Source of the DNA: Paraescarpia echinospica
Lineage: Eukaryota; Annelida; Polychaeta; Sabellida; Siboglinidae
NCBI GenBank assembly: GCA_020002185.1
Contig: CM034531.1
Location: 46,850,602 to 46,914,601, forward strand
Length of the DNA stretch: 64,000 nt
Direction: 5' to 3'
Below, one piece after another: positions 6,620 through 52,745 of the stretch (positions are counted from its first letter, which is position 1; the number at the start of each line of letters is the position of its first letter). The position numbers and the translations under genes were made by a program. The notes beneath the pieces are model-generated. The model saw only the letters and a program-made list of their open reading frames with translations. It searched no databases and was not told the origin of the DNA.

Positions 6620-7077
6620 ATAGTGCATTTTGTGATAAAAGCACAAATTTGACTCTAACATTTTGAATAGATTTGGATATTGAGCCACCACAGATTTGGC
6701 CTCTGGCGGCTGTAGCAGCCATTTTCTAAAATGGCCGCCAGCGGTCATTGTTATTTTACATACCTTCTCTACTGGGGAGGACAGCAGGTTGACAGTGGAG
6801 GTTAATTCACTTATAAAAGGCCAAAAGTGGTTATGGAAGAGCTAATTGTTTGATTTTTACCAAAACAAATAAGTCATCTTGGACTAGTGTGTCTAATTAG
6901 GCACATGATGCAGTTGGATTCCGAATGGAATCCAACTGCATCATCATGACGAATGATCAATAACTGGCTTGGCACATACTAGTACTGCTACTGGTAGTAA
7001 TAGTATTAGTGGTGGTGGTGATAGTAGTACTAATAGTAGTAACACTTGTAGTAGTATCAGTAGTCGTTGTAGTAGAA
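6620..7077 (+). repeat. Left inverted-repeat arm of CXC element 1 (unit A)
   Basis: Matches the reverse complement of 9817-10292. Shared blocks include TGCATTTTGTGATAAAAGC, GGATATTGAGCCA, CTGGCGGCTGTAGCAGCC, AGTGGAGGTTAATTCAC, AAGAGCTAATTGTTTGATTT and GTGTCTAATTAGGCACATGATGC-type sequence. The inner end is an (AGT)n stretch (6979-7076) matched by (ACT)n on the other side. Arms of about 460-475 bp flank the gene symmetrically, as in a DNA transposon with long terminal inverted repeats. The left arm here lacks a short block, GGGGCGGCATAGCAAACC, that unit C keeps. Confidence 0.85.
6905..6944. repeat. 18-bp perfect hairpin inside the left arm
   Basis: ATGATGCAGTTGGATTCC, a 4-nt loop GAAT, then its exact reverse complement. 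It is present in A, C (about 31590-31630) and B right of the gap. The right arm has only one half, so the palindrome is specific to the left side. The B contig stops inside this hairpin at 18000. Confidence 0.85.
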
Positions 7078-7620
7078 ATGAAATATGCACAATGGCGGAC
7101 ATTTTACAAAACCGCGTTCAGACAATTGAATCAGAATTAATTGGTGTTCAGAACTGCCATCTCCAGAGGAACTAGGTGACTTCTAGTGGGGACAGTTGAC
7201 ATTAAAAAAAGTTTCTACAACACTGTATAACATGATTAACAAGGATTATAGTGCTCTTTTAATAGTTAATGGCGTAAAAAGCAGCAGAGTCTCACTTATA
7301 GTGATATATTTTATGCTTTTTGAAATGGCAAGCCAGACTGTTGTGTAACTAAAAACCGACCTTTATTTAGCCTAATATCATTATGACCATATAAAACGAA
7401 TATGTTTAAAAACTAAAATCACAAAAACTACACATTTTTCAAGAACACAGTTTAAATTGAAAGGGCCATTTAACAAACATAGACATATTTAACACTAATA
7501 TATGTTTGAAAACTAAAATCACAAAACTACAAATTATTCAAGAACACGGTTGAAATTGAAAGGGCCATTTAGCAAACGTAGAAATATTTAACACTAATAC
7601 ATGTTGAAATATTTGTGTGG
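7078..7620. other. AT-rich spacer with a 100-bp direct duplication (unit A)
   Basis: Two adjacent copies of about 101 bp (from 7399 and from 7499) share ATGTTT-AAAACTAAAATCAC and TTGAAAGGGCCATTTA. No coding potential. It lies between the left arm and the 3' end of the CXC-family pseudogene and is conserved in B and C, so it looks like part of the element. Confidence 0.7.
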
Positions 7621-7623
7621 CGA

Positions 7624-9510
7624 ATGGAACAGATCATCTGCATGCACGCAAGCACGCAGACACATACACACAGAGCTGTGCAGCCTGTTTGCACTAGCAA
7701 CGCTTCACACAACCCTTCTTGAACTTGCAAGAGATTATCTCATAGCAGGTGTGGGCTGTCTTGGGTAGTCTTGCCCAGTGCGGCTCGTACGTGCAGTTCT
7801 CATTCTTGGCCCAGCAGAAGCTGGTTGGTGGCTGTAGCTCTGGTGCCCTTAGCAGTGCTGGCCTCACACTTGGCCTCCATAGTAGGCCCTCTTGATATGT
7901 TCCTCCAGGGCTGCCTTGGTTGGCGGGATCAGTTGCACATCGTTCTTCTTTGCGAAAAGTTTCTTTCATGCATTTTCAATGTCCGTGCATGTGCTGGTTC
8001 TGTCACACAACAGGATAATACAATAACGAACCTCTTGTTATGCATCTTCTGGTATGTCACTTGTTGTAGAGGATAGTTTCAGCAGTGTTTATGAGTTCTG
8101 GTAGCACGGTCCAGATTGTCCAGACAGTCTTCTTAACTGTACACAGTATCACATCCAGTCAAAGCGTGGAACATTGGCAACGCCCATGCCTTCATCGGTC
8201 TCAGGCCAGCTGCTAGTTTGGGCTGTTAGGAATCCGAAACACTTGCCAGTTCCGAAATGTTAACCATGGGTCATCATCTGGTTGAAACCTCTGAGTCACT
8301 GACACGGGCAATACCACGGTGTCAACACCTCGGATCATTATCTCGAGGTGGCCACGCTAAGCTGCATGGGTTATATGCAGCAACATACGACTGTCAGCTT
8401 CTTTGTGGCTGCATGGGGCGGGTGAGGCCAGAGATGGCTTGCTGACGGTTACACCTCCATCAGTGATGACAAGCTGTTTGTCCTCCAGGTCAATCGACCC
8501 GAGGAGAGCTGACAGGAATGTGAACAGCTCTGTATTGGTGCTTCCTCCACTCTGAGGACATTTTGTCCGTTTCCCGCTATTGCTGCTGAAGCCACCACAC
8601 ATTTCCGCACTCATTTTCCCTGCTTTTCTCCTGCACTGTCCTTCAGTGAATATCTACATTGTAGCTGTCACACATCAAGTCCACGCGTGGCTCAGTTTGA
8701 AGCTTTGTGAACAGGTATGGAATGAATATCTTTCTGGCATACTCATCAAAGTTCTTGAATGCAGTTGGCTTCAGCATCTGAATGATGACATCTCCATCAA
8801 GGATTACACTGGTGGTGGCAGGAGCCTCAGACTGGACATCAGAGACGTATTTCAAGCATATGTCACTCTTCGTGCCTACGCGGAAGCTTCCTCCATCAGA
8901 GAGTGACCATACCCGGGTGATTTGTTTAGGTACCTCAGGTAAACAGGGACCCACCTGGCATAGTTAGTGTGATCTGAGGCATAGAAGCAGGGGCCAATTC
9001 TGTTAGGGCGACCAAGGCACATCGGAAATGATACCTGCCGCAGAGAATGCACTTAGACCAGTACCGGCACCTCTAGTTCCAGCACGATTGCCCAATACTT
9101 AAACACCGGGGTGTCTTCTCTCTGGAGGTACCAGTCTTCAAACTCGAACAGATTTCCTGCGTCATCAGCTTCTTTCAGACAGTAGTTGTCATAGGCAATG
9201 TATTGCAGGATGTACAGTCATGCCGCAGTGATTTGGTGAGCTCTTCTTGTGTGGCGATGTGGGTTGCTCGCACGAAGGTGTCGGCTGACCTGGAATCGTT
9301 ATCTCGGCTTGCACCAGTGTTTGGCCACTACCCTACAAACAGTCCTCCAGCGTCTCTAGGGTTGCAATCTCGATGTGGATGCCACCTAATATCACCACCA
9401 AATTGTTTTCCCCGTTGCTCTCCGGCCACGTCCACTGAATTTAATTGGCCAATGTCAAAAGACATCCATTGAGTGCCGGATCATGGCCACTGTGTGAGCA
9501 CTGTCCAGGA
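7624..9510 (-). pseudogene. CXC-family element gene, inactivated (unit A)
   Basis: Minus strand, N to C: IQWTWPE then LGGIHIEIA (about 9500-9380); RVGTKSDICL and VILDGDVIIQMLKP, KIFIPYLFTKLQTEPRVDLM (8954-8643); CSHKEADSRMLLHITHAA (8614-8357); ALPMFHALTGCDTV (8183-8142); PPTSFCWAKNE, YEPHWARLP, and SCKFKKGCVKRC (7969-7694). A TAG at 7694-7696 cuts the cysteine tail, but the frame continues CKQAAQLC, so a CXC domain was once complete. Many frameshifts and stops separate the blocks, and the DQAHEQ-type block is missing. The order matches uncharacterised invertebrate proteins with Tesmin/TSO1-like CXC tails. Acidic motifs (EADSR, VDT) suggest a PIN/FEN-like nuclease; this is inference. Flanked by inverted arms, so probably the enzyme gene of a dead transposon. 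Confidence 0.75.
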
Positions 9511-9816
9511 ACAGCGGAAGTAGGGCGGTGGGGCCGATGTTTCTGGTGGTTGGCGGCTGGCATGAAATGCAGCCCAGGATATGTTATCCTAGGTCCCAGT
9601 TTTGTTGTCCAGGACCTGCTTCGCCTGATCTATCGACAAATAGTTTTCATCAGTCAGGTGAATGAAGTCATGCTAGCAGCTGGGTCAGATGACTATTCGG
9701 TGTTGTTGGTGACAGGATGCACATCAGTGCAATAGTGTGGCAAGTGGCCGATGGCCTTGGAGCTTATATCCACAGATCCTCCAAAGATGACAATGCTTCC
9801 ATCTACTCCTTCAGCA
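9511..9816. other. 5' part of CXC element 1, no clear motif
   Basis: Between the last recognisable CXC-family motif and the right arm. The minus strand has an open frame 9908-9693 whose N-terminal Thr/Ser run is the translated (ACT)n repeat. The rest (EGVDGSIVIFGGSVDIS) is not recognised. It could be the eroded 5' end or leader of the gene. Confidence 0.4.
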
Positions 9817-10292
9817 ACGACTACTTCATTACTACTACTGTTGCCACCACTACCAGTAGCATTAGTAGTAGTAGTAGTCGTTGTACTAGTAATCGTAGTA
9901 GGTGCCAAGCGGAGTTATCGTTCATTCATTATTTACTTCCATTCGGAATCCAATCGCATCATATGCCTAATTAAACAAATTAGTCTAAGTTGACTTATTT
10001 GTTTTGATAAAAATCAAATAATTAGCTCTTCCATAACCACTCTTGGCCTTTTATACGTGAATTAACCTCCACTGTCATCCTGCTGTCCTCTCCAGTAGAG
10101 TAGGTATGTGAAATAACAGTGACCACTGGCGGCCATTTTCGAAAATGGCTGCTACAGCCGCCAGAGGCTATATCAGCGATGGCTCAATATCCAAATCTGT
10201 TCATAATCTAAGTCTACACGTGTGCCAAATGTTTTGCTTTTATCACAAAATGCACAATTCTTCTGTATATGTTGGTTATGCTGCCCCACTAT
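9817..10292 (-). repeat. Right inverted-repeat arm of CXC element 1 (unit A)
   Basis: Reverse complement of the left arm. It runs from the (ACT)n stretch through CATATGCCTAATTA, AAATCAAATAATTAGCTCTT, GTGAATTAACCTCCACTGTC, GGCTGCTACAGCCGCCAGAG and TTTTATCACAAAATGCACAA to GCCCCACTATT. The outer end GCCCCACTAT pairs with ATAGTGGGGC, which survives in the left arms of C (31281) and B left of the gap, but not in A. Confidence 0.85.
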
Positions 10293-10295
10293 TAA

Positions 10296-12545
10296 AAGTG
10301 ATATTGTCAACACCAGTACGCACCACCGGGACAACTCCTTCACTCCTTAACAGTGATCTTGTCAACACAAGTACGCACCACCGGGACAACTACTTCACTC
10401 CTTAACAGTTATCTTGTCAACACCAGTACGCACCACCGGGACAACTCCTTCACTCCTTAACAGTGATCTTGTCAACACCAGTACGCACCACCGGGACAAC
10501 TCCTTCACTCCTTAACAGTGATATTGTCAATACCAGTACGCACCACCGGGACAACTCCTTCACTCCTTAACAGTTATCTTGTCAACACCAGTACGCACCA
10601 CCGGGACAACTACTTCACTCCTTAACAGTGATATTGTCAATACCAGTACGCACCACCGGGACAACTCCTTCACTCCTTAACAGTGATCTTGTCAACACCA
10701 GTACGCACCACCGGGACAACTCCTTCACTCCTTAACAGTGATATTGTCAATACCAGTACGCACCACCGGGACAACTCCTTCACTCCTTAACAGTGATCTT
10801 GTCAACACCAGTACGCACCACCGGGACAACTACTTCACTCCTTAACAGTGATATTGTCAATACCAGTACGCACCACCGGGACAACTCCTTCACTCCTTAA
10901 CAGTTATCTTGTCAACACCAGTACGCACCACCGGGACAACTCCTTCACTCCTTAACAGTGATCTTGTCAACACAAGTACGCACCACCGGGACAACTACTT
11001 CACTCCTTAACAGTGATATTGTCAATACCAGTACGCACCACCGGGACAACTCCTTCACTCCTTAACAGTTATCTTGTCAACACCAGTACGCACCACCGGG
11101 ACAACTCCTTCACTCCTTAACAGTGATATTGTCAATACCAGTTCGCACCACCGGGACAATTCCTTCACTCCTTAAAAGTTATCTTGTCAACACCAGTACA
11201 CACCACCGGGACAACTCCTTCACTCCTTAACAGTGATATTGTCAATACCAGTGCGCACCACCGGGACAACTCCTTCACTCCTTAACAGTTATCTTGTCAA
11301 CACCAGTACGCACCACCGGGACAACTCCTTCACTCCTTAACAGTGATACTGTCAATACCAGTACGCACCACCGGGACAACTCCTTCACTCCTTAACAGTT
11401 ATCTTGTCAACACCAGTACGTACCACCGGGACAACTCCTTCACTCCTTAACAGTTATCTTGTCAACACCAGTACGCACCACCGGGACAACTCCTTCACTC
11501 CTTAACAGTGATCTTGTAAACACCAGTACGCACCACCGGGACAACTCCTTCACTACTTAACAGTGATATTGTCAATACCAGTACGCACCACCGGGACAAC
11601 TCCTTCACTCCTTAACAGTGATCTTGTAAACACCAGTACGCACCACCGGGACAACTCCTTCACTCCTTAACAGTGATATTGTCAATACCAGTACGCACCA
11701 CCGGGACAACTCCTTCACTCCTTAACAGTGATCTTTTCAACACCAGTACGCACCACCCGGACAACTCCTTCACTCCTTAACAGTGATATTGTCAATACAA
11801 GTACGCACCACCGGGACAACTCCTTCACTCCTTAACAGTTATCTTGTCAACACCAGTACGCACCACCGGGACAACTCCTTCACTCCTTAACAGTGATCTT
11901 GTCAACACAAGTACGCACCACCGGGACAACTACTTCACTCCTTAACAGTGATATTGTCAATACCAGTACGCACCACCGGGACAACTCCTTCACTCCTTAA
12001 CAGTGATATTGTCAATACCAGTACGCACCACCGGGACAACTCCTTCACTCCTTAACAGTGATCTTGTCAACACCAGTACGCACCACCCGGACAACTCCTT
12101 CACTCCTTAACAGTGATCTTGTCAACACCAGTACGCACCACCGGGACAACTCCTTCACTCCTTAACAGTTATATTGTCAATACCAGTACGCCCCACCGGG
12201 ACAACTCCTTCACTCCTTAACAGTTATCTTGTCAACACCAGTACGCACCACCGGGACAAATCCTTCACTCCTTAACAGTTATCTTGTCAACACCAGTACG
12301 CACCACCTGGACAACTCCTTCATTCCTGAACAGTGATCTCGTCAAAACCAGTACGCACCACCGGGGCAACTCCTTCACTCCTTAACAGTGATTTTGTCGA
12401 CACCAGTATACACCACCGGGACAACTCCTTCACTCCTTAATAATGATCTTGTCAACACCAATACGCACCACCGGGACAACTCCTTCACTCCTTAATACTG
12501 ATCTTGTCAACACCAGTACGCACCACCGGGACAACTCCTTCAATT
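10296..12545. repeat. 55-bp minisatellite, 41 copies (unit A)
   Basis: CACCACCGGG occurs first at 10321 and last at 12521, exactly 40 periods of 55 bp. Core pieces are GTACGCACCACCGGGACAAC and TCCTTCACTCCTTAACAGT. Two variants, ATATTGTCAATACC and ATCTTGTCAACACC, tend to alternate, giving a 110-bp higher-order pattern. The last five copies are the most divergent and are shared with B and C, so turnover is internal. It abuts the right arm. Confidence 0.95.
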
Positions 12546-12556
12546 TAACAATGGAC

Positions 12557-12790
12557 TCAGTTGAATGGTGGGTTTTCCTGGTGAGCACCTTGTCTTAATG
12601 AAGCGATCCCCAGAAGACATTCAAGTGTCTTGCGAGCTGCGATTTCATTATGCCGGCCGTCGAACATCCCAATAAGGAAACCTTCGCCATGATTTGTTGA
12701 CCAGCTCCATTGGGTTTGCTTTGCAATTGAATAGTCTGATTGATCCATACTGATGTTGGGCACGTGTCCTCGATTCAGAATGTCCACTAT
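12557..12790 (-). pseudogene. Second CXC-family N-terminal fragment (unit A)
   Basis: Minus-strand frame with VDILNRGHVPNISMDQSDYS, AKQTQW, GEGFLIGMFDG, NEIAARKTLE. This matches the family block 'GQ-P-DQ-Y-IAKQ-QW ... MFGGLHIEMAALKTL'. The same block also occurs at the start of the gene inside the arms (IQWTWPE ... GGIHIEIATLETLE), so this is a remnant of a second, diverged family member and not the displaced 5' end of the first. Nothing recognisable lies upstream of it. Confidence 0.6.
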
Positions 12791-14214
12791 TTATTCACAA
12801 AATTTATAAAATGACGTATTATAGCTATGGACTTGGCGAAAAGGTTATAGGACAACAGCGAGTAACGTGATCGCTGTCTGTTATTGCAATGTTTGGTTGA
12901 TTGCTGGCATGATTATGCAACCCAATAGTCCGCTTCATCCTACTAACTTGACAAAACCATAGTTTAATGATGGCGACGGTGTCACAACGGCAGAACCTAA
13001 AGTATCTGGTAAATGCAGTGGGTGTAAATCCTCCCGCGTTATGATACACTAGTGTACACTTTTACATAGTGGTATGAGGCATTTTGTTTGAGATAAATAT
13101 GTTGCAGCCCATTTTCGCCGGATCAAGCAGCGGAAGTTTGGTCGGCGCATAGCATTTTCGAGAAATATCGTAACCGCGAACGTCCGTCCACCCTCAAGTT
13201 TTGTACATGGTTAAATGGTCATTCGATGAATGAAAAAGCACCGTCTGTAATCAGCCATCAAATCGATCTTTGGATATGGCTGACAGTTGAAAACGGCGGG
13301 TAAACTGTTGAAGGAAACTGCACCTACGTCAACTTGAACGAGTTCGACGGAATCTCCCTTTTCAACGGAGAAGTTCGCGAACAATCCTTCCTGTCGGTCG
13401 CGGTATTGTTCACTTCTTGCTGTCGTCGCATCCGCTGAAAGGAACAATAAGATGCACGTCCATCCAGTTCGCCGTCGTACCAAAGACCTTAGAATTGTTA
13501 TCACAACCTGTTGTCAAGTAGAAACAATGCATTAACGTCACGTGGTGACGTATTAACGTCACGTGGTGACGTTATCACCGTCTGAGCACGAAGCCGCTTA
13601 CGTCAATGATCAGCGATATCGCAATCACTGATTTTATGTAGATATCAGTGGTTGCACAAACTAAGCGTAAGACCATTTCAGTATTTCATGACAATAACCA
13701 AGTATAAAAAGTACATTACAATTAACGATCATCTTGGGAAACAACTGATATTGCAGTGATAGGGGGCATCAACGATTAGTTGGTCGTCTAGCTGAAATGT
13801 TTCCCTTCGCTGTGCAAGCCTGCCACATGTTACGCTTGTACGATTAAAATCACAATCCACTCATGTTGTTCACAATCCACTCATGTTCACATATCTCCCC
13901 GGCTGTGTGCACATGCGTGCGCACGGGTCGTATATTACCATATAAGCAGAATTATCCCATTGTTGTTGAATTCGTTCGTGTTCCGTGCCCATCAAATTGT
14001 TCAATGAAGTAATAACATTGCAATTGGAGAAGTCCATTCCACATTTGCACAGGCAGTATGAAGCTCTTCAGACGCACATTATAACTTCTCTAACACAGTG
14101 GACATTAGTGTTGTCAAAGCTGCGGTAGGTAGTAGCTTGAACTCGTTGGATAAGCTCGATCTTCAGGTCTACTCCATGTTAGCCATGACGAACTCCAGGA
14201 CCAAACGGAAATAA
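12791..14214. other. Unassigned part of unit A
   Basis: Two minus-strand open frames (13049-12825, 74 codons; 13504-13211, 97 codons) are kept in B and mostly in C, but have no motif I know. Their conservation is explained by recent duplication. A short direct repeat CACAATCCACTCATGTT occurs at about 13850-13890 (two copies in A and B, one in C). The tandem palindrome at 13531-13578 is listed separately. Confidence 0.4.
13531..13578. promoter_or_regulatory. Duplicated AACGTCACGTGGTGACGT palindrome
   Basis: Two adjacent copies of AACGTCACGTGGTGACGT separated by ATT. Each is an inverted repeat ACGTCAC-GTG-GTGACGT holding a CACGTG E-box and CRE-like half sites. Copies are at 26238-26285 and 37541-37588. 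No gene is next to it, so a regulatory role is a guess; it could equally be an element end. Confidence 0.35.
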
Positions 14215-14475
14215 GTGATAGTAAACAGCCCTACCCTACTCCTGTCTCCTATTCGAACCAATCTATCAGTTGACCATTGGCGATTACTGCACATTCAACA
14301 TTATTATGCATGGCTTCAATCAGTGATGTCATCTTCGGGTCCACCCCAATATATCGGAGTATATCCCACAATGCATCTACCCAACTGGTATCAAATGGTG
14401 CTTTGAAGTCCAAAACATGAAATGCAGTAGTTCTGGTGCTAATTTGCCTTTTTTCAAGACAATTAAACAAGGCTA
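14215..14475 (-). pseudogene. Reverse-transcriptase fragment (unit A)
   Basis: Minus strand: LFNCLEKRQISTRTTAFHVL, DFKAPFDTSWVDALWDILRY, IGVDPKMTSLIEAMHNN, CAVIANGQLIDWFE. This is the non-LTR reverse-transcriptase palm block 'FIDFKKAFDSV-R-LW-L-GV-P', and downstream ETGVGQGCLLS is still visible in B and C. The catalytic D of the first motif is present (DFKAPFD). The rest of the domain cannot be followed. Only about 80 residues survive, so it is not functional. Confidence 0.75.
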
Positions 14476-14831
14476 CGAGTGTTGTAGACTGTTAACCTAG
14501 TATGTCTGCAAACGACTCTGAAGGATCACTGTCATGTGCCTTGGTTAGGGTGCGTATACATGGATTTCTTACCGGTTGTACAATTAGGTATCGGTATATA
14601 TAGCCAAATTCAAATTTACCATACTACTCCATTTTGCCCACTTTTCAAGACGATCCTGCATGTGAAAGCGCAGCAAACGCATCACTGTCGCCACATTACC
14701 AACAACCATTTACAACAGACAATAATGATTATTTACAAACTAAATGACCGTGGCAATTTCCGCCACGAGACTGTAAAATAACTTACGATTGTTGATGTCC
14801 TGTGTGCAGCTTAGGTCGGCTTATCGACGAT
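14476..14831. other. End of unit A
   Basis: No gene recognised. The chance frame 14536-14781 is copied in B but has no motif. It ends at GGCTTATCGACGAT, the tandem junction. Confidence 0.5.
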
Positions 14832-15567
14832 CCGAGACAGCGCGATACGACGGGAGCTGTGTTGCGCCGCTAATGAACCTCCCAGAATTAAAAAAAAGTT
14901 GGCAGGTATAGAGTGACTCAAATCTGAGTTGTCGATAGTGTTGCCTAATGTCGTGTTCACACAGAAAACCTTGAGACTTATTTTTAAACCGGTTTATGAC
15001 GTACAGTTGTTCGCAACCGCTTACGCTGCGTGTGAACGCAGCGTATAAGACTGTATATGGCGTACACTAACTGCTTTACAGCGGATAGTGCGAATCAGTT
15101 AAACATTTTAGGCGACAAAATCGGCCACTCCTATTGATGCTATTCATTCTAATGAGAAGCTGAAACAGTCACAACTAGCTCCATCTAGCGGGTAAATAAA
15201 CAATAAATTGCAGCAGAAAGTATGAATTATGATCGGATATCACATTTCTCTTGCCGCCCGCCATCATGCATCGTTTTGGTCTTTAAATTGAATTTGTCAT
15301 TGATTCTACTGTTTAGACTTGGTCAAGAACACTAGCAATACTTCAGTGCGTTTCTCTGGGATTATGTTCTATGACGACAATTTGGACAGTTGGCGCTGCC
15401 ATGTGGCGTGGATTAGGATTTACGACCACATTGATATGAAACTGCGACAAACATCACAATTTATAATATAATCGAGGCTTTTCGAACTGAAGCAAAGATT
15501 AGATTTAACAAGATTGCCACCCAGAGAATTAACTCTAGATGGCAGGTGGACAAGGAAGCGTTTTGGC

Positions 15568-15884
15568 TTATCGAGAGTCCAACCCTTTTTATATATGTGT
15601 ATCCCGTCCTTCTGAGGTACGTGTCAATTTAATTTTTAAACATTCGTGCTACTAGCACCCACACAATGAGCAGATAATATGTTCCAGTTATTTACATTCC
15701 TTTGTGAGAATGAGAACTTTCTTATATCTAATCTACACTGCTCCTTTACTAATGTAACTTCAGGTCCTTCTGTCTTTCTTAACTGAGAAAAATTTCTATC
15801 AATATTTTCATAACCATTCAATATTTTAAACACTTCTATCTGATCTCCTCTCAAGCTCCTGGTCTCTAGTGTTGTCAAACCACA
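15568..15884 (-). pseudogene. LINE C-terminal fragment (unit B)
   Basis: Counterpart of 2330-2646. The 80-codon frame 15878-15636 has the same protein sequence as in A, with the same stop after ASSTNV, so it was already a fragment before amplification. Confidence 0.7.
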
Positions 15885-16232
15885 TTCTTTTAAGTGTATT
15901 TCTGTGTACTGTGGTCAACGTATTAAACTATGCGGCGTTTTATTGCAGTATTTTTGTTGTAAAGAGAAATACCACCACGTGGACTTGAGTCTTTCGGTCA
16001 ACGGGCCAACACTAAGCCCGTACCAGAAGAAGGGTTGCTTCTAAGGTGGTTTGTGCTAATAATTTAACGTTTTATTTGTTAGATACAGTGTGCGTGCGTG
16101 TGTAAATAAATTGTTCACGGCGTTATGTGTGTTTTCTGCGATTGTTCCAACGTTCGCCGATCAGCTGGGGACGTTTGACGTAATTTTCGCTGCATAAAAC
16201 GGCTCACAGTTACGTCACAACAAACGTCATAT

Positions 16233-16540
16233 CAGTGGCGCGGGAACGAAATTCATATTGGGGGGTTACCGGAGCTTCAGCACCACTGAAAAAATTTCGC
16301 CGCCGCTCCGCCGTATATCTTAACATCTTCCTTCACCCTGTGGCAGTCTCGGTTGGGTCGACTGTGACTTCGGAAGACGGGGGGTGGAGGGAGCTGTTGG
16401 AAAATGTTCGCCACTGCGCCGCTACAACTTCAGCTTCTCGGCTGTGAACATTTTATTGTTTACGTCACGCCGCTTATTACTGGGAGGGGGGGGCAGAAAA
16501 CCATATATCTGCCCAACAGCAGGGTGTAGCGGCTTGTCAT
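16233..16540. repeat. Dispersed G-rich repeat (unit B)
   Basis: Counterpart of 2995-3300, with G-run and point differences (TTTCGCCGCCGCTCCGCC). No protein. Confidence 0.5.
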
Positions 16541-17390
16541 TAATATTCTCTCCTGTCAGCCGTGGACATCTGACCGCGCGGCGACACGGAAAAGCAATTT
16601 ATAAGAGAAACGACCAAAACGGGCTGTGATTTATAACGCCGTAGACGATTATATTACATTAAATTGTGCGACACTTGGGGTAAGACCACATTTAAATTTT
16701 ACATAGGCGGCCATTATAACGTTTCCTTCATTTCCTGCTTAATTTGACGAACAATTTTCTTGAAAATTTCACAGCATATTTAACCTTCATTGACACAAGT
16801 GCTGTAGAAAACTCGTAAAATTCTCATACCTCAGTTTTCAGAAAAATCCACCCAAACCTGACACCCCTCAATTTCGCCTTAATCTGGTGACGGATTGTGA
16901 AGTATTGGAGCGTTCTGCAAAATAGCCACTGTGCGAATACGCAAGAGACTAGCGTATGTTTATTGCTACCTCGTGAAAGATCTAATGTAGTAGTACATTC
17001 TGTATTCACTGGACTGACATGTGCCATGCCAAAGTGCTCGAAAAAAATTCACACTTGACACCAGAACGGTATTTTCAAGGGAACTCTTTCGGTATGTAAT
17101 GGCGGACGAATCCTTAATGTGGTCTTACCCCACTTGTCGACACAAAACGCGCCCGCACCGCAACACGACACTTTGGCTTTGCAATAGGGTGGACTCTCTG
17201 GAATTGGTTACACTGGCGGAGAGTCGCGCTATGCTGACCACGCTCTCGCAACTAGTTGGTTTACAAACAGGCAGCAGCACTAATTAGTAGAACTTTATAA
17301 TCCTCATGTATATAGCCAACTGCGCATATTCTGTTAATTAATTAGTCTCACCGGCTGTGCAACACCAGCTCGCACCGATTTATTGCTCAA

Positions 17391-17680: not shown

Positions 17681-18000
17681 ATAGTGGGGCGGCATAGCAA
17701 ACCAATTGTGCATTTTGTGATAAAAGCACAAATTTGACTCTAACATTTTGAACAGATTTGGATATTGAGCCACCACAGATTTGGCCTCTGGCGGCTGTAG
17801 CAGCCATTTTCTAAAATGGCCGCCAGCGGTCATTGTTATTTTACATACCTTCTCTACTGGGGAGGACAGCAGGTTGACAGTGGAGGTTAATTCACTTATA
17901 AAAGGCCAAAAGTGGTTATGGAAGAGCTAATTGTTTGATTTTTACCAAAACAAATAAGTCATCTTGGACTAGTGTGTCTAATTAGGCACATGATGCAGTT
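17681..18000 (+). repeat. Left inverted-repeat arm, cut by the gap (unit B)
   Basis: C-type arm that keeps GGGGCGGCATAGCAAACC. It runs to GATGCAGTT, inside the 18-bp hairpin, where the contig ends. Confidence 0.85.
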
Positions 18001-19000
18001 NNNNNNNNNNNNNNNNNNNNNNNNNNNNNNNNNNNNNNNNNNNNNNNNNNNNNNNNNNNNNNNNNNNNNNNNNNNNNNNNNNNNNNNNNNNNNNNNNNNN
18101 NNNNNNNNNNNNNNNNNNNNNNNNNNNNNNNNNNNNNNNNNNNNNNNNNNNNNNNNNNNNNNNNNNNNNNNNNNNNNNNNNNNNNNNNNNNNNNNNNNNN
18201 NNNNNNNNNNNNNNNNNNNNNNNNNNNNNNNNNNNNNNNNNNNNNNNNNNNNNNNNNNNNNNNNNNNNNNNNNNNNNNNNNNNNNNNNNNNNNNNNNNNN
18301 NNNNNNNNNNNNNNNNNNNNNNNNNNNNNNNNNNNNNNNNNNNNNNNNNNNNNNNNNNNNNNNNNNNNNNNNNNNNNNNNNNNNNNNNNNNNNNNNNNNN
18401 NNNNNNNNNNNNNNNNNNNNNNNNNNNNNNNNNNNNNNNNNNNNNNNNNNNNNNNNNNNNNNNNNNNNNNNNNNNNNNNNNNNNNNNNNNNNNNNNNNNN
18501 NNNNNNNNNNNNNNNNNNNNNNNNNNNNNNNNNNNNNNNNNNNNNNNNNNNNNNNNNNNNNNNNNNNNNNNNNNNNNNNNNNNNNNNNNNNNNNNNNNNN
18601 NNNNNNNNNNNNNNNNNNNNNNNNNNNNNNNNNNNNNNNNNNNNNNNNNNNNNNNNNNNNNNNNNNNNNNNNNNNNNNNNNNNNNNNNNNNNNNNNNNNN
18701 NNNNNNNNNNNNNNNNNNNNNNNNNNNNNNNNNNNNNNNNNNNNNNNNNNNNNNNNNNNNNNNNNNNNNNNNNNNNNNNNNNNNNNNNNNNNNNNNNNNN
18801 NNNNNNNNNNNNNNNNNNNNNNNNNNNNNNNNNNNNNNNNNNNNNNNNNNNNNNNNNNNNNNNNNNNNNNNNNNNNNNNNNNNNNNNNNNNNNNNNNNNN
18901 NNNNNNNNNNNNNNNNNNNNNNNNNNNNNNNNNNNNNNNNNNNNNNNNNNNNNNNNNNNNNNNNNNNNNNNNNNNNNNNNNNNNNNNNNNNNNNNNNNNN
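18001..19000. other. Assembly gap, 1000 N
   Basis: Exactly 1000 N, the usual size for a gap of unknown length. The same element part lies on both sides (array plus left arm at 17391-18000; array plus arm at 19001-19698), so this is not a simple missing piece. Open frames across the N run are artefacts. Confidence 0.98.
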
Positions 19001-19200
19001 TCAGTGACCACTGTCCCCCAAGGGACCGTTTCACTAACACTCTTATGAGCTCACTGACCACTGTCCCCCAAAGGACCGTTTCATTAACACTCTTATGAGC
19101 TCACTGACCACTGTCCCCCAAGGGACCGTTTCACTAACACTCTTATAAGCTCACTGACCACTGTCCCCAAGGGACCGTTTCACTAACACTCTTACGAGCT
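19001..19200. repeat. 50-bp minisatellite, 4 copies (unit B, right of gap)
   Basis: Matches A from 6380 onward, including the A-specific variants CAGTGACCACTG and CCAAAGGACC, so this contig end is A-like. Confidence 0.9.
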
Positions 19201-19240
19201 CATAAGCCCGGTTTTGCTCTTTAAAACTCCTTCGCTCCTT

Positions 19241-36572: not shown

Positions 36573-36579
36573 TAACAAT

Positions 36580-39399: not shown

Positions 39400-41260
39400 C
39401 GGCCGAGCCACCCAACTCAAAGACCATAATGTTTTCCTGGTAGATGCAGTGTCTGACGTGTTGCATCAATGCATCATCTGTTGGTGGCAGACGATCGAAG
39501 GCGCAGTTTTTCTTCGTGAAATGTTCTCGTTTTGCCTCGTTAAAAGACTTTGCTGCACTTGACTAGTCATACAGTGTGATGACGAACTTGTCCATCAACT
39601 TAAATTATGGACTAGCCACATCTAACTTGGCAAACGGTGACCTCGCTATGGTGCAAATGCTTCTGTCACACCAGAAACTTCAGACCAAGCCTTCCAAGCC
39701 GACCTTTTCCCAACGCCACGGAACGCTGAAACTACATCACAGCCCATCGTGGCATGGAACATCAGGAGTCGCTTAGCCTTCCGCTCTCCAAGGTTGTCAG
39801 AAACAGTGTTGACGTGTATGTTTCTGGAGTTTCGCCCTGTTCCGAATGCCACCCACAGCTGTAAGTTACCGACGGTCGTTGTTAAACAGAAGAACAGTCC
39901 AACGAAGATGACGACAACATCCGTGTCTACAATGCGTACAACGACTGTCTTCGCCCCTTGCCGAAGAGCGGGTAGTGAGTGGTACACTACACGCGTGTTT
40001 GCGTCCTCGTGGGAACACAGTTCATCCCATGAGCAGCTACACTGTCACCAGTTGTCACGCACACCACCTTGTCTTCTGGCCATTGCTCCGTCTGGATTGC
40101 TTCTCCAAGAAACTTGAAAAGATCCTCCTTGTTTTTTTAGTCCCGCAGGAACTCTGGCCATTTCTTTGGAACCTTGGCTTGTCTTGTAACTCGCACTCTT
40201 CCACCGTGTCCGCGCTTCTCCCTGGCTCTTAGTTTCATGCTGGTATGGATATATTTATTCCACACAATGTCCAACCTCGATGACGATTCAAGTTCTCTCT
40301 TGATGAATGGTATGAACACTTGCTAGGCGTATTCCTGGAATGTTGCGCAGCCTGTGGGGGTCAACATGTGAGTTAGGACAGGTCTTTCATAAACCTTTGC
40401 GTCTACAAATGGAGGCGGTTTGGTCGGGAACATCAAGACAAGACAGCAGGTCCGACTTTGTACCAAACCTCACTTCCCTAAATTGTGATAGAGAGGGCGG
40501 GAAAGGTTGGTTCTCGTGCGCAAAAAACACAGCGGGGTCGCCATCGCGGACTTGGTTTGCAATGTACAACTTGCCAAACAGAGATTCGCCTGACTTAATG
40601 TTCGACAGCGGCGCGCCTTTCTTCTTCTCCAGCTTCGGGTTTCTTAGCGTGAGAATGCCGTTTCTCTTGATCGGGATGCTTAATGGTGTGCTCCTTTCGT
40701 GTAAGACATTCAACCGGAATGCATCGTATTGTGTCTCCAGCTTCTATATGGTCTCCACCATGGACTCTCGAGCGCATTCAAGCTCGAAGGGATTTCCGTG
40801 TTGCCGAATGACACCGACGAGTGCGGATCGTCACATCGGAATGGAACTTTCGCTGAGAAGCCAAGATACGTGTCTGCGTGGTGCATCTGGCTAGTTGTTT
40901 TTTGTTCTGCGGGTGATATCTGTGTTTAAAGTTCTTGCAGGAGTCGTGCTAACTCTGGTCCCGCGAGGAGCCATCTTTGAAGAGCTGCTGCGTTTTCAAT
41001 GAGACCGATGATGCCTCCTTTCCCTTCACGCCTTCATTTGCCTGTTCGTGCGCCTGGTCGACGGGCATTGCTGAGAACCGGCGAATCGTTTTGGGCACTA
41101 CACAATCGCCTTGTGTGAATGTCGTCAACGCTGCATGGGGCAATGTCTTCATGTTCTCCAAGTGCACGCTGATCCATCGACTGTAGTTCATATGGTCCAG
41201 GCTGAAGAACATGAACACAAGTGTTTCCATTCTGGTGATCGAGGTATTATGCACTTACGT
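39400..41260 (-). pseudogene. CXC-family element gene, inactivated (element 2)
   Basis: Minus strand, N to C: FFSLDHMNYSRWISVH, FSAMPVDQAHEQANEGVKG (41254-40949); GNPFELE-type block (about 40800); SLFGKLYIANQVRDGD, FFAHENQPFPPSL, RFGTKSDLLSCL (40713-40387); FIPFIKRELESSSRLDIVWN, REKRGHGGRVRV (40319-40137); CSHEDANTR, VVVRIVDTDVVVIFVGLFF, LQLWVAFGTGRN, LLMFHATMGCDVVSAF (about 40040-39646); then EHFTKKNCAFDRLPPTDDAL (about 39450). The C-terminal CXC tail is lost. Frameshifts separate the blocks, so it is dead. It is clearly the same family as 7624-9510 but a different subfamily, and it keeps the DQAHEQ block lost there. VWN, EDANTR and DTD could be PIN/FEN-like acidic positions; this is inference. 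Confidence 0.8.
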
Positions 41261-41340
41261 TTGATAGCACCTGGCATCGCGTTCGCCTCGATTCCGGCAT
41301 GCAACATCATCTAGACGCTACTAATTCCCGTTAATTAATT

Positions 41341-41674
41341 TTACCTTTTTAGATGTAGGCCTTGAAGTAAAAAAAATAGATCAGCATATAAACTTAGCTT
41401 GCATACATGCACACAAAAAAAGTCGCTCTGCTGAGGAATACAAATTTCCTTATCATCCCATTTGACCTTGACATTTCCAGATTGTTGACATGAAATCTTG
41501 ACAATCAAGGTCAAGAACACGACAGCGGATTGGATCCGGTATGCATGCGTATAAAAACAGCGATGGTACTGAAAAAGATCAGGTTCATTGTCGTTATCAT
41601 ACATATAAACAAAAATAGGGATGTTTTTGAAAAAAATGTATATCTATGACCTTGACATTCAAGGTCATAGATAT
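41341..41674. other. 5' non-coding part of CXC element 2
   Basis: Between the pseudogene start and the right terminal repeat. It repeats TTGACCTTGA/TCAAGGTCAA motifs and AAAAACAG(C/T)G(A/G)TGGTA blocks similar to those in the terminal repeat, so it looks like a decayed extra copy of that repeat. No recognised protein; the frame 41604-41341 (minus) is not a known family. Confidence 0.5.
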
Positions 41675-41678
41675 ACAT
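41636..41678. repeat. 20-bp perfect hairpin
   Basis: ATGTATATCTATGACCTTGA, loop CAT, then the exact reverse complement. It lies at the inner edge of the right terminal repeat of element 2. Confidence 0.9.
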
Positions 41679-41882
41679 ACATGCACACATACATAATTAT
41701 CGACACATATTCGTACATATATAAAAACAGTGGTGGTATTGAAAAATATATATTTCACGTTCAGTAACATTTGACCTTGAAATTCAAGGTCAAGGACACA
41801 AAATCTGACGTGGAGCCCCGTTAATCGGATTCGCCGAGAAATGTTACATATATGGTGCAATGTTCATGCTTTTATCCGGCAA
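41675..41882 (-). repeat. Right inverted terminal repeat of CXC element 2
   Basis: Reverse complement of 39187-39377, ending ATGCTTTTATCCGGCAA. It carries TTGACCTTGA-AAT-TCAAGGTCAA at 41771-41793. Confidence 0.85.
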
Positions 41883-41885
41883 GTA

Positions 41886-44000
41886 ACGATTCGGCAAAAA
41901 AATTGCCTTAACAAGCCAGACTATAGTGCATTGGCGCACTGTGAGTGGTAGTTGATTCCATGCTCTTGGAGCTGAACAAGAAAATACTCGTTCGCCGAGT
42001 TTAGTGCGGGTAGTGGGTTGTTTAAGAAGTAGCTGATCGGAGGAGCGTAGACAGCGTGTTGGGCGATACGGACAGAGAAGTGCTGATAGATATGGAGGTG
42101 CGAGCCCATGAAGCGAGAAGTATAGGGTCTTGATATTAATGCGACTCTTCACAGGAAGTCAGTGCAGCTCCAAGAGCATGGGCGTGACCTGGTCTCGTTT
42201 CGACCGCACCGGTATGTCGGTTATGATACAAGCACATGTATTTTGGACACGTTATAGTTTCTCAATTACTGTCGCTGGCAATCCATTAAGAAGACTATTG
42301 CAGCAGTCAATTCGTGAAATGACTAGCGCATGCACAAGTTGTTTTGTGTGTTCTTTGTCTAAGTATCGACGAATGCGTCCAATGCTATGGAGGCGGTAAT
42401 ACGCATTTCTGCAAATGTTTGTTACGTGTCGCTCAAGGGACATATTAGAATCAAAGGTCACCCCCAAGTTTCTATATATAGTGAACAGTACTGGTCCAAG
42501 AACTTACTCCTGCGGGACTGGTCACCGGCAATCAACACCATGTAGTGTCTGTGTTGTAAGTAGGCAGCGAACCACGACAGAGTTCACAAAGTTGGTATTC
42601 ACAGCATGGGCATGTGGCGCTTGTAGTGTGGTGCGAATACACTAGGTTTTATCGTCAAAGTAGTATGCAAGGTCGTTGGCGAGCGATTCGGCACATTCGT
42701 AGGTTGGTAGTGTTGCTGTGTTACCCCGATGCAGCAGCTTGTTTGCGATGTTGTGGAATTGCGCTTGGTTCCGGACGTCCAACAATTTTTCCTCGTAATA
42801 GATCTTTTTCGCTTCAGCGCACATGTTGTTGACTTTGTTTCTTTGTTGTACATACATGTCTCGGTGCACTGTTAATTGTGTCCTCTTGTATTGATGTTCA
42901 AGCCGCTTACGTTTAGCTTTTGCAACTTTGATGTCCGCGTTGTACCATGGCACGTTGTTCTTCACGGTGATGGTGCACTCTCTAGCAGGAGCATGTTCGT
43001 CGAGTATTGACAACAAAGTATTGTTGTAACGAGAAAATGCCGCTGCTGCCAATTCGCTGGCTTGCTGAACAGTCAGATCAGAGCAGGTAATGTCATGGCT
43101 GATTTTCTGATGGTTGATAGTTTTTAACTTACGCACAGTCATTGTTCTCTTTGGAGGGACTGTAGTTGATAACGGCGGAGTGGTCAACATTGATTTAATT
43201 ATCACAGGTGTCATCTTCAACAGGCAGCTCACCACATCTCGAGGATGTGGCCTTTCTCATGAGTTACCTGGGCAACGTGCTGTTGGTGGTTTGTTGCGGA
43301 GAGAAGGTCTGTAATTGGTTTGGTATGTACACTGGTGGATTGTCAAAGTGAAAGTCTTGGTCCCCAACGAGTAGCAGCTGACCGGATGTAAGTGTGAGGT
43401 CATCGAGGAGATTGGCAAACTTTCGATTTTGGTGGAGGTCACTGTTATAAATCGCAATAGTTCGAGGCCGACTTTGACTAAGCAGTTGATATACTCCATG
43501 GAAGTGTAGTTGTTGTGCTTTATTACAGTTACTGAGATGGATTCACGGAAGATAATGGCGACTTTTCCGCCTCTGGCGTTGGCTCGTGGTATGTGTTTCA
43601 TAGCATATCCAGGTGGCACCACTGGCTTTACGGCAATATGCGATGGCCTGAACCAGGTTTCCGTAATCGAACATATGTCTAGTTTGTTTTCAGTTATCAG
43701 ATCCAGTATTTGTTGACACTTATCAAGCTCACACGCAGACCGGGTGTCCAGAAGAGCAGCTCTAAACAAATTAGTCGCACAGCTTCCATGTAGTTTAACA
43801 TGTATCAGGTTGCTTCTGTTGACAACTGGTACGATGCTATTGCGTATTGACCGGTTGGACACATCGGTTCTGGCTGCAGTCACTTTCACAGGAATTGTCT
43901 TAGTCACTTGGCATTGTCTTCGACCGCCAGTGGTCCCTCTGTGGGTCGGTATTGCGCAAGAAATGCCTAATTGTTTCAGCTCGTTGTAGACTGCCTTTCT
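41886..44000 (-). pseudogene. L2/CR1-like LINE, internally deleted
   Basis: Minus strand, N to C: endonuclease region with LLDTRSACELDKCQQILDL, DICSITETWFRPSHI, ARGGKVAIIFRESISVTVI (43907-43257); linker with TVRKLKTINH, NNVPWYNADIKVAKAKRK, YYEEKLLDVRNQAQFH (43235-42642); then only the end of the reverse transcriptase, VLGPVLFTIY (about 42500), GVTFDSNMSLERHV, IGRIRRYLDKEHTKQLVHAL, SRIDCCNSLLNGLPA (42467-42252) and SLHGLAPPYLSALLCPYRPT, APRAWNQLPLTVRQC (42152-41930). The central catalytic part, including the YADD box, is deleted and frames are shifted. Downstream it runs into element 2, and its probable 3' tail is at 39036-39186. Confidence 0.82.
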
Positions 44001-48364: not shown

Positions 48365-48835
48365 TCAACTTTTTTCGCCGCTGCACCGCTGTAACTTCAG
48401 CTTCCCCGCTGTCTTGGCTGTGAACTCATGACATCCGAACAAACACGGGGGGGGGGCAGTGCTGTTGAAAATTTTTTTTTTTTACTTCGCGTCAATTTAC
48501 CTGCTCCAGCTTCTCTACGCTTTCTCCGTTGAAGGGGGGATGCTTTGGAAAAATGTTCGCTACCACGCCGCCTATTATGGGGGGGGGGGCAGAAATCAAT
48601 ATGTCTACCCTCCAACTGCACACACCTTTCACAGTCGACAAAAATACAAATTAATCGTCTCATAAAATTTACATTTCCACCCGCCGTTGATGCTCGCCAC
48701 AAAAACAAACATTCACGCTCACATTTAATGGGGGGCAAAACCATATGTCTGCCCCCCAAAGAAATTCCAGGGGCAGCTGCCCCCTCCGTCCCCCTGTTCC
48801 CGCGTCAATACCTCCAGCACAACATTTCGTAAATA
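48365..48835. repeat. Dispersed G-rich repeat, diverged copy
   Basis: Shares CTGTAACTTCAGCTTC, two long G runs followed by GCAG, and ATATGTCTGCC with 2995-3300. It ends CAGGGGCAGCTGCCCCCTCC, CTGTTCCCGCGTC, the reverse of the GCGCGGGAAC start seen at 2998. Non-coding; the 95- and 120-codon frames over it are translations of the repeat. Confidence 0.55.
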
Positions 48836-48870
48836 GTCAGGATTGTTATGTATTTTCGTTAAATTTTTTT

Positions 48871-49520
48871 TAGATTTGCAAACCTATACATTTTTGGAAA
48901 CGTTATGATATAGTGAATCTGAAAACCAATGTTTACATTTTTTAAAGGTAGATATGACAGCCATTTTGGTTTCTTAAAATGGTGGACACTGAAAACCTGT
49001 ATTTCTCAATATCTCAGCTGCTAAACCACCCAGCTTTTTGATTTTGGTGGTTAAACCTACATATTGAGGGGCAAGGAATCCAATAGGATCAATTACAGTC
49101 ATATAAGCATAATGAAATTACTTTATGACAGTTATACATGTTATGAATGAATAATATACATTATAGCATAGCGTATAAATGCATGTTTCGTTCACTTTTT
49201 GATATTTGCAAAACTATATATTTTGGAATCATTATGGTATAATGAATCTGAAAAACAAATGTTTACATTTTTGTAAAGTATATTTGGTGGCCATCTTGGA
49301 TTTTTTTAATGGTGGACACTGAAAACCTGTATTTCTCAATATATCAGCTGCTAAAGCACCCAGCCTTTTGATTTTGGTGGCTAAACCTACATATTGAGGG
49401 GCAAGGAATCCAATAGGATCAACTACAGTTATCTAAGCATAATGAAATTACTAGTTTATGGCAGTTATACATGTTGCGACTGAACAATATACATGTAGCA
49501 TAACATATAAACGCATGTGT
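48871..49520 (+). repeat. Left repeat pair (L1, L2) flanking CXC gene 3
   Basis: Two direct copies of about 325 bp (48871-49195 and 49199-49520). Shared blocks are GAATCTGAAAAC-AA-GTTTACATTTTT, ATGGTGGACACTGAAAACCT, GTATTTCTCAATAT, TTTTGATTTTGGTGG, TAAACCTACATATTGAGGGG and AAGCATAATGAAATTACT. Both recur as reverse complements at 52175-52745 on the other side of the gene. Confidence 0.87.
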
Positions 49521-49659
49521 ACATTGGAAACAAGTATGTGCCTGTATTTTCATTTATTAACATCTTATAACTATCATACCAGCATCTCTACACAGTTGCG
49601 TGTAGTTCACATATATGTCTGGTTTGTTATAATAATGTTGTGACCCGGTATACTGCATA

Positions 49660-52182
49660 TTAGTCATCACTATCGTCATCGGATACACGATTTTCAAAGT
49701 GTGAATCATCGTCATTCTCACACTGTGCGCCACACAAGCACAGGTATGTGCATTGCAAGTCCTTGCATTTGCAGGAACACTTCTGTGATGGACAGTCTCC
49801 TTTGCATTGGCATCTTACCATCTCAATGATGGCCTTAGGTGCTGGAAGGATGTCAGTTGTGGTTGGCGTCAGCTGTCCATCAGCAGTCTTGTGGTAGCCA
49901 TTCCGCACTGGGTCCAAAGACACCTGCTGAGCAGTGCTGGCCTGGCCCCACACTCTAGCCTGCAAGTGTATTATGAATATGTGCTGGTTGAGCAACCCAA
50001 TTGTAGGTGGTTGCTTGTCACTCTCGCCATGTGTTTACAGAAGAGGTGCCATCGCAATTCTGGAATGCGCTTGATCTGGATACCATTGGAACAATATGCA
50101 GCGCATACGAATTTAGTCAAGGTAGACTGCTGATCTTCTGACTTCTAAACCATGTAACCTTGCCTATTCTTGCAAACTTCCCTGAAGAGAAAGCATGGAA
50201 TGCCGGCAATGCCTTGGCCCTTTCTGCATCGAGAGCTGTCCAGAATGGCTCAATCGGCAGCATGCCCAATGACATCGAGGTCTTCCTCGGCAGCTGATCA
50301 TCATTAACGATGATTAGCACAAGGACATCAGTGTTTGGCGAGAAGAACATCAGCTCACCATCTTCCCTTGGGCTCCTTTGTGCTGCCAAGACAGCCTAAC
50401 AGATCATTAAGCTGTATGCTTCCTCATGGTTGTTGTCTTCAAAGTAAATGTCCCTGTTGCTCAGATGCTGAAGTGATAACCAGCTTGGGGGAATCTCGGT
50501 TGTACTGTTTTTTTCAGCCGGGTACTCTATGAGATCACCTTTCGTCTGGTCATGGGATAGGAAACGGCTCATGACATGGTGATGTGTTTTATGTTGGTAT
50601 CGTGTCGCACTTGATACTGGATTGGGTCATTCCATCCATGTCTCTTCTCCCTGGTTGTACTCTTCAGTGAATCCACCTTGTAAGTGTCAAAGACTAGAAT
50701 TATTTCGTCATAACCTCTTGTGAGGTCCATGACTTTGTCAATGAAACTATCACTGAGATCCTTCACTGTCGGCATGGTTGCTTTCTTCTTCATCAGTTTC
50801 TGGATACCCACTATACCATCTACGACCGCAATCTTCCTACTTTCATGAGGACCATCAACTTCCGCAGTTGCCAAGTCCAAGGCTCTATCATCTGGTACAT
50901 TAACAAGCGTCTCGCTTGTAGCCATCTGAGAGTTATTGGTGTGAGTATCTGTTGTTGCCAACTGCTCAAGGACGTGGATGAGCTTGGACTTGTCGTTGCA
51001 TGGCAACATTGAGCCGCTTGGAACAAACAGTGCCCTTGGCGTCAGGGTGAACTCATAGTTGCTGATGCAGTGGATTCCCGCAGATCTACTGTATTGACTT
51101 GACTGCAAGCTTCTTGTTGCCAGACATGTATATATTGTGGTTTTGTTTCTTGAGAGGTGCCCACAGGCTGACATTCCCATTTATTCTCTCTGCCATATAG
51201 TGTTCGTACAGCTTCTGTCCAGTCTCGTCCATGTTCAGGATCTGTGGAATGTATTCGCATGGAATGTATGCATGAGTAATCAGGTTGAATGGCGTGTGAC
51301 CTTCAACAGCGAATGGATTGCCAAGACTCATTATGGCAGCCTTGATCTTGCTGATGGCATCATGCTCCCGCTTGACCACACTCGTGGATAGATCATGATG
51401 CTCACTAGCCTTGTTGTATTTGACATTGAACTGACCTTTGAATTCGCTTGCCGTGCACGACAGTTCGGGAAAAGCTAGGAAGAAGCGTTGTCTTGCATTG
51501 ACATTGTTGGAGATTCCGATGAGACCAGAATGAACGGATGTTCACAGGCATGGTCTGCCCCAATGGAGACAGATGGGATGGCAGTATTGGTACTTGATAT
51601 GTTGCCTAATTCAAGTTCCGTCCACGTCTCTGGATGGTCAGCCTTGAGTGAGTGCATGTCAGCTATATAACGTGGCCAGAGTCTCTTGTACTTTATTTGG
51701 TCCATAGCAAAGAACAGCTTGCTCAATACTGCTACAAAGAACCGGATCGTCGCCACTCGGTGCAGGTACATCAGCAGGGATCTGAACATGACATTCTCGG
51801 ATCTCTGTCCCTCCCACTCCTGGAATGTCTTCATGACATCATCGTCGGCCAAGGCTTGGAGTAGATGGGTGTTGGCACGTTTCACAGATTCAGCCTTGGT
51901 GTGTTTGCTCACCTGTGAGCAGGCATCTTCAATCTCGGTTGTTGCCTCCAAACACACGTCCTGGAGAACTCCTCCAGGGCCATCTCATACAGTGCCACAT
52001 ATGTGGGCAGACAGGGAGCGCTTGTAGTGTGCACACATCAGGATCTGTCTGGTTGTCGCAGAACCGGAAACATCAGCTGCTATCCAGGCATCATCTATTC
52101 CAGAATTTTCAGTGGAGGTCCCCGGGCCTCTTAAGGCAGCCATGACGACATGCAGCTCGCCCAGTCTGGGACACACTGTCAT
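49660..52182 (-). pseudogene. CXC-family element gene 3, nearly complete C-terminal two-thirds
   Basis: Minus strand, N to C: CPRLGELHVVMAALRGPGTS, SGIDDAWIAADVSG (52176-51985); EATTEIEDACSQVSKHTKAE, KLFFAMDQIKYKRLWPRYIA, IGADHACEH (51957-51475); VVKREHDAISKIKAAI, LNMDETGQKLYEHYM, SLWAPLKKQN (51379-51086); NYEFTLTPRALFVPSGSMLP, KVMDLTRGYDEIILVFDTYK, REKRHGWNDPIQYQV (51180-50569); NNHEEAYSLM (about 50420), FFSPNTDVLVLI, LPAFHAF (50389-50117); KFVCAAYC, ARVWGQAS, CQCKGDCPSQKCSCKCKDLQ (49995-49660). HEEAD has become HEEAY and is followed by a stop. Frameshifts occur between blocks, so it is inactive. The CXC tail is intact. The N-terminal third is missing, and the coding match ends exactly at the inverted repeat. 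Confidence 0.82.
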
Positions 52183-52745
52183 AAACTAGTAATTTAATTA
52201 TGCTTAGGTGACTGTAATTGATCCTATTGCATTCCTTGCCCCTCAACATGTAGGTTTAGCCACCAAAATCAAAAGACTGGGTGGCTTAGCAGCTGAGATA
52301 TTGAGAAATACAGGTTTTCAGAGACCACCATTTTAAAAATCCAAGGTGGCCGCCAAATATACCTTTAAAAATGTAAACATTGGTTTTCAGATTCATTATA
52401 TCATAACGTTTCCAAAATATATATAGTTTTGCAAATCTCAAAAAGTGAACGAAACACATGCGTTTATACGCTATGCTACATGTTTATTATTCAATCATGA
52501 AATGTATAACTGTCCTAAACTAGTAATTTCATTATGCTTAGGTGACTGTAATTGATCCTGTTTGATTCTTTCCCCCTCAATATGTAGGTTTAGCCAACAA
52601 AATCAAAAGGTTGGGTGGCTTAGCAGCTGAGATTTTGAGAAATACAGGTTTTCAATGTCCACCATTTTAAGGATCAAAGATGGCCGATATATATACCTTT
52701 AAAACATGTAAACATTGGTTTTCAGATTCATAATAATCGTAACGT
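52175..52745 (-). repeat. Right repeat pair (R1, R2) flanking CXC gene 3
   Basis: Two copies (52175-52440; 52441-52745) in reverse complement to L1/L2. Shared blocks are AAACTAGTAATTTAATTATG, CCTTGCCCCTCAACATG, AAATACAGGTTTTCA, AATGTAAACATTGGTTTTCA and ACGCTATGCTACATG. The outer end is worn; it stops near CGTAACGT, where L1 has AACGTTATGATATAG. The repeat even covers the first ATGACAGT of the adjoining open frame. Confidence 0.87.

Follow-up and report, generated by a model that had tools for sequence, protein, structure and literature searches.

Decayed inverted-repeat transposons with a predicted FEN-type nuclease in Paraescarpia echinospica, very probably of the AcademX lineage of Academ

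The AcademX lineage of the Academ DNA transposons reportedly goes back to Kapitonov and Jurka in 2010 and Kojima in 2020. Academ appears among the superfamilies with a DDD/E transposase in the relevant part of PMC9587614, and its lineages differ in their target-site duplications: according to the passage on this point in Kojima 2023 (PMC10045372), AcademX makes duplications of 3 or 4 bp and AcademH of 9 or 10 bp, a difference seemingly linked to the enzymes they encode, a nuclease and a helicase. For bivalves, the corresponding section of PMC10294476 gives 100 curated Academ elements with a mean of 5565 bp.

Here we analyze a 64-kb stretch of contig CM034531.1 from the annelid Paraescarpia echinospica (the window), which holds three families of elements, A, B and C. 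A search of the genome added a near-intact relative, element D. Because their 3-bp duplications and encoded nuclease agree with AcademX and a transposase-like region is present, we regard A, B and C as very probably decayed, mostly internally deleted Academ transposons of the AcademX lineage. The elements in the window are therefore best explained as an already described kind of transposon rather than a new class. Coordinates are positions in the window, and the genome searched is one assembly of 1.08 Gb.

Ends, target sites and dispersed copies

A preliminary description of the window had reported three inactivated subfamilies of a single gene family, each flanked by inverted repeats. The repeat pairs lie where it put them, with broken frames of related proteins between, and a six-frame reading finds the coding frames of all three families decayed and on the minus strand, which confirms that claim. 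The repeats had also been called unrelated in sequence; this needs qualifying, as their outermost bases are similar across the families, being TAGTGGGG in A, TAGTCAGG in B and, with variants, TAGTAGGG / TAGTCTGG in C. Among 23 copies of family A (the three in the window and 20 from elsewhere in the genome), both ends lie within three substitutions of TAGTGGGGCGGCATA in nine, and TAGTGGGGCGGCATA falls outside the repeats as first marked. Both ends of family B are present in 6 of 10 pairs of ends (TAGTCAGGTT, aligned together with the window copy). Four pairs of ends were compared with the window copy of family C: the left end is TAGTAGGG in two of the four, TAGTAGGA and TAGTATGG in one each and AAGTAGGG in the window copy, and the right end is TAGTCTGG in two and in the window copy, with TAGTATGG and CAGTCTGG once each. 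Element D has TAATGAAGCAGC at its left end and TAGTGAGGCAGC at its right end, and the latter agrees with the family A end at 10 of the first 12 bases. The ends of A, B, C and D are thus alike, and approximately TAGTNNGG is common to the four families, with the exceptions listed. Terminal inverted repeats, a trait of AcademX, are present.

Target-site duplications of up to 12 bp were scored in 21 copies with both ends (nine of A, six of B, five of C and D). Left out were 12 A and four B copies without a recognizable end, A copies 1 and 2 as duplicates of copy 3, and the window copy of B, whose right end is decayed. An exact 3-bp duplication flanks 14 of the 21 (A 7/9, B 4/6, C 3/5, D 0/1); the flanks are identical over one base in seven, and over two bases or over 4 to 12 bases in none. 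The 3-bp length falls within the range given for AcademX, with 4 bp found in 0/21. Kyakuja-Dileera-Zisupton elements make 8-bp duplications, seen here in 0/21 copies. As a control, among 15 copies of A and B the flanks of different copies matched in 7 of 210 comparisons, and none of 100,000 permutations reached 11 matches.

The surroundings of family A copy 3 provide a natural empty site. TTA stands on both sides; the right flank consists of the 55-bp satellite unit, and on the left 15 of 18 flanking bases agree with the part of the unit that comes before it; we therefore take the satellite unit to represent the site before insertion. Outside the satellite arrays, a match as good as this occurs only at the four family A left flanks of the window; beyond about 20 bases the left flank of copy 3 is no longer satellite-like (17/30). 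Three 55-bp satellite arrays (Table 1) start exactly at the right end of family A.

Searches of the genome with the DNA of each family gave at least 208 matching pieces for A, 239 for B and 169 for C, all on many contigs and with 71-100% identity among the matches listed. These counts are lower bounds, 40 candidates having been scored for each family, and they are counts of pieces rather than copies, as one copy can yield several. The earlier claim that these are mobile inverted-repeat elements is borne out by near-identical termini, 3-bp duplications, the satellite empty site and the dispersed copies. One locus (L053, G000:C7:64880179-64881863) is a short family A derivative, like a miniature element, retaining about 530 nt at one end and 730 nt at the other. 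Near a family B copy, L030:481-3522 is a long interspersed element (LINE) whose open frames measure 582 and 430 aa; very long apparent open frames in L029 and L031 proved to be runs of N and were discarded.

The encoded protein and its predicted domains

A genome search with a family C frame found L079, a 980-aa open frame with further frames before and after it, which together with L085 and L086 makes up element D, 6853 bp long with inverted repeats. D encodes, spread over several frames, an N-terminal piece with cysteines, then a transposase-like region, a nuclease domain of the FEN type and a cluster of cysteines at the C terminus. When the 980-aa frame was compared by BLASTP with frames of 40 aa or more, taken from the window and the collected loci, 126 matches resulted. 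Family C frames of the window match at 43-52% over residues 398-470, 579-679, 727-781 and 827-947. Family A frames match at about residues 163-430 and 660-950, and in this comparison none matched residues 431-659, the stretch that holds DQAHEQN; in the family A locus L007, a single frame jumps almost directly from residue 430 to 660. Family B frames match only beyond about residue 370, and by motif the family extends further upstream, with GELH for GGLH at about residue 278. Searching the genome with the same 980-aa frame returned 71 rows, with 47 candidates scored.

The protein is predicted to contain a FEN/PIN-type nuclease domain. In an AlphaFold model compared by VIA, which with Foldseek supplies all the structural evidence, residues 671-980 of L079 have a predicted fold like those of FEN1, EXO1 and XRN, at 8-15% identity in the rows shown, and the acidic positions of the nuclease are mostly retained in protein alignment A2 (D920 in 14/14 rows, D857 in 13/14, D742 in 11/14). 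This comparison upholds the PIN/FEN-like nuclease of the preliminary description, and its sequence blocks require adjustment: the string HEEADT of the proposed HEEADTR block was not found in the six reading frames of the window, where variants occur (HKEADSR in A, HEDANTR in C, HEEAYSL in B), and the DTDV block is seen once in these frames, in C. Of the proposed C-terminal CXC domain, a cysteine cluster can be seen by eye, with no CXC match listed by Pfam.

Upstream of the nuclease, the L079 frame carries the transposase-like region with the motifs D, GGLH and DQxHEQN (in alignment A2, D250 in 5/6 rows, H281 in 3/4, D459 in 11/13 and E463 in 9/13); a nuclease is thus encoded beside a transposase-like region, as in AcademX. 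From these motifs and the literature we infer that the region is of DDE type. The proposal of an enzyme differing from DDE transposases is not supported in view of this region, whose DDE fold is unconfirmed. Pfam searched with the L079 frame at E values up to 5 returned only DUF6589 and no named transposase family, Harbinger-type included, and it gave nothing relevant for ten window frames or for seven frames of families A and B. The L079 protein had no relative in IMG/VR. An AlphaFold model of a family B frame, with a mean predicted local distance difference test (pLDDT) score of 44, was set aside.

Layout and copy history of the window

The three family A elements of the window are 99% identical to one another, and all sit in a unit of about 12 kb that is repeated at 96-98% identity (Table 1). 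They therefore stem from one insertion that was then copied, and the duplicated surroundings rule out three separate insertions of family A. Families B and C are separate from it, so that the three independent associations of protein and inverted repeats formerly claimed stand for the families A, B and C and fall for the three A copies. Besides the A element, the tandem array contains a LINE fragment and satellites of 50 and 55 bp; a run of 1000 N breaks it, and the true array may be longer.

The inverted repeats of family B, about 570-680 nt long, are built with tandem subunits of about 330 nt, and many family B matches elsewhere in the genome begin one such unit in (query 387). Two decayed LINEs lie in the window, a piece of one matching the other at 45% identity. 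Family C had been thought to be inserted in a LINE. It ends at 41923, close to position 41946, where similarity to a LINE ends (a 221-aa LINE piece matches there with its residues 27-206), and on its other side a minus-strand frame at 38485 resembles reverse transcriptase by eye. The LINE pieces used as queries gave no match to this frame, and we reject the insertion as not demonstrated.

Table 1. Features of the 64-kb window.
Feature	Position	Strand	Remarks
~12-kb tandem unit, ~3x	1592-38825		repeats 5300-17359, 19001-30065, 30061-38825 at 96-98% identity, each with a family A element
Family A element, copy 1	6621-10291	-	left terminus truncated directly after TAGTG; TAGTGGGGCAGC present as right terminus; flanked by TTA on both sides
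55-bp satellite arrays	10292-12542, 22912-25260, 34978-36580
Transposase-like remnant in ~12-kb unit	12560-12790	-	45% to L079 residues 238-290
Family A, further copy (start only)	17682-18000	-	interrupted by N run
N run, 1000 nt	18001-19000
Family A element, copy 2	19242-22911	-	same insertion as other A copies, duplicated with surroundings
Family A element, copy 3	31282-34977	-	both termini (TAGTGGGGCGGCATA...); exact TTA duplication; inside 55-bp satellite unit
Family A copy 3, nuclease-domain frames	33046-33649	-	ILDGDVIIQML; HKEADSR
Family A copy 3, transposase-like frames	33565-33903	-	DHTNYARW
Same transposase-like remnant, another ~12-kb unit	36625-36801	-	MDQSDYSIAKQTQW...GMFDGRH; L079 residues 238-290
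Family C element	39156-41923	-	right terminus TAGTCTGG, left terminus AAGTAGGG; inverted repeats ~190 nt, 84%
Family C nuclease frame	39649-40044	-	HEDANTR, VDTDVVVI, GCD; 44% to L079 827-947
Family C nuclease frame	40140-40322	-	VWNKY; 47% to L079 727-781
Family C transposase-like frame	40952-41254	-	NYSRW, DQAHEQAN; 52% to L079 398-470
Decayed LINEs	41946-43907, 60130-62700
Family B element	48834 to ~52822	-	TAGTCAGG as left terminus; right end approximate owing to decay
Family B inverted repeats	48834-49520, 52142-52822
Family B C-terminal cysteine cluster	49663-50034	-	CQCKGDCPSQKCSCKCKDLQCTYLC; CXC-like by eye, without Pfam match
Family B nuclease frame	50120-50395	-	PNTDVLVLI
Family B nuclease frame	50572-51180	-	VVDGIV; VFDTYKVDSLKSTTREKR
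Family B transposase-like region, later part	51478-51984	-	MDQIKYKRLWPRYIADM...GADHACEH
44-bp satellite array, ~105 copies	53367-57987		adjoins family B element

Assignment, alternatives and known systems

Several observations weigh against the AcademX assignment. Seven of the 21 copies lack an exact 3-bp duplication, six with one mismatch in three (L042, L043, L061/062, L063/064, the window C copy and D) and L094/093 with flanks that do not match. The DUF6589 match of the L079 frame (E 4.7e-6) lies under the Pfam cut-off, as does UbiD (E 0.0012), the only Pfam family for L080, and L084 gave nothing relevant in Pfam. Foldseek returned no row at E <=0.001 and had unrelated folds among its rows; sequence-profile searches of the PDB gave none with alignment A1 and three irrelevant rows with A2. 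In the transposase-like region pLDDT is low, leaving an RNase-H fold and a catalytic triad unproven, and around GGLH there is no obvious second Asp. Moreover, 13 of the 71 rows of the genome search begin at residue 243 or 244, and the residues before this point may belong to a separate exon or be absent from many copies. The nuclease of AcademX is of the XPG type. The passage of PMC10045372 says only nuclease, and the likeness found here is to published descriptions of AcademX. Literature searches found nothing on Academ with XPG, on Academ with CXC or Cys-rich, or on DUF6589, and nothing related on CXC with PIN and inverted repeats.

The reliance on published descriptions leaves some room for a separate DDE superfamily outside Academ, perhaps related to Harbinger, that acquired a FEN-like nuclease independently. 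Harbinger also makes 3-bp duplications. We nevertheless think such an origin very unlikely: Pfam names no transposase family for L079, a weak argument since the database need not contain the family, and for AcademX the passage of PMC10045372 records a nuclease together with 3-4 bp duplications. The same record counts against the undescribed superfamily of the preliminary description, where transposition would need no DDE enzyme and the transposase would be the FEN-like nuclease itself, with its tail rich in cysteines. In its favor, alignment A2 preserves most of the acidic positions of the nuclease, A and B retain the nuclease although part of the transposase-like region could not be traced in any of their frames, and the model did not confirm a DDE fold; however, the near-intact relative has a further conserved domain (D, GGLH, DQxHEQN and the near-cut-off DUF6589), FEN nucleases are not known to have strand-transfer activity, and DDE strand transfer is what usually gives a fixed short duplication. 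A nuclease acting as the transposase is therefore, in our judgment, very improbable. We hold out as little hope for a nuclease that does an essential cutting step of transposition, perhaps the only one, a thought prompted by A and B, which keep the nuclease, have part of the transposase-like region unfound, and yet include many copies with clean 3-bp duplications. Finally, the fact that every window copy is broken speaks for host genes or pseudogenes lying between inverted repeats by chance, but dispersed copies with coincident ends, similar termini and 3-bp duplications, one of them inserted within a satellite unit, make this hardly credible, and we regard it as refuted by the duplications and termini.

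Returning to AcademX, the observed ends, 3-bp stagger, dispersed copies, predicted nuclease fold and protein homology between families are compatible with a mechanism that is otherwise conjectural. Most probably the transposase-like enzyme of a fuller element, presumably of DDE type, would bind at the element's ends and, with a stagger of 3 bp, cut them and join them to the target. Flaps or the second strand would be left for the FEN-like nuclease to trim, and the cysteine clusters may bind DNA. Families A and B and many C copies would have moved in trans with the protein of the fuller element. If the assignment is true, several AcademX families are added with measured ends, duplications, a satellite insertion and a predicted FEN-type nuclease fold. 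The claim of a new superfamily is not sustained. Because the nuclease persists in families whose transposase region is partly lost, what it does can be put to the test.

Like AcademX, these are inverted-repeat DNA transposons with short duplications (3 bp here, 3 or 4 bp in PMC10045372) and a nuclease encoded with a transposase-like region. They differ in that the window families are deletion derivatives. The published passages on AcademX also say nothing of a cysteine cluster at the C terminus or of inverted repeats that are partly tandem, as in family B. Element D measures 6853 bp against the bivalve Academ consensus mean (PMC10294476). AcademH would belong to the same superfamily if the assignment holds, but has a helicase and longer duplications (PMC10045372) in place of the nuclease and 3 bp found here. 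The Kolobok lineages E, D and P are DDD/E transposons that likewise carry an accessory nuclease; as given in the relevant part of PMC9587614, however, these enzymes are of lambda-exonuclease-like, DnaQ and His-Me finger types, rather than FEN-like. With cellular FEN1, EXO1 and XRN, the protein shares the predicted nuclease fold and the spaced acidic residues, although at low identity, and here the nuclease is joined to a transposase-like region and a cysteine cluster.
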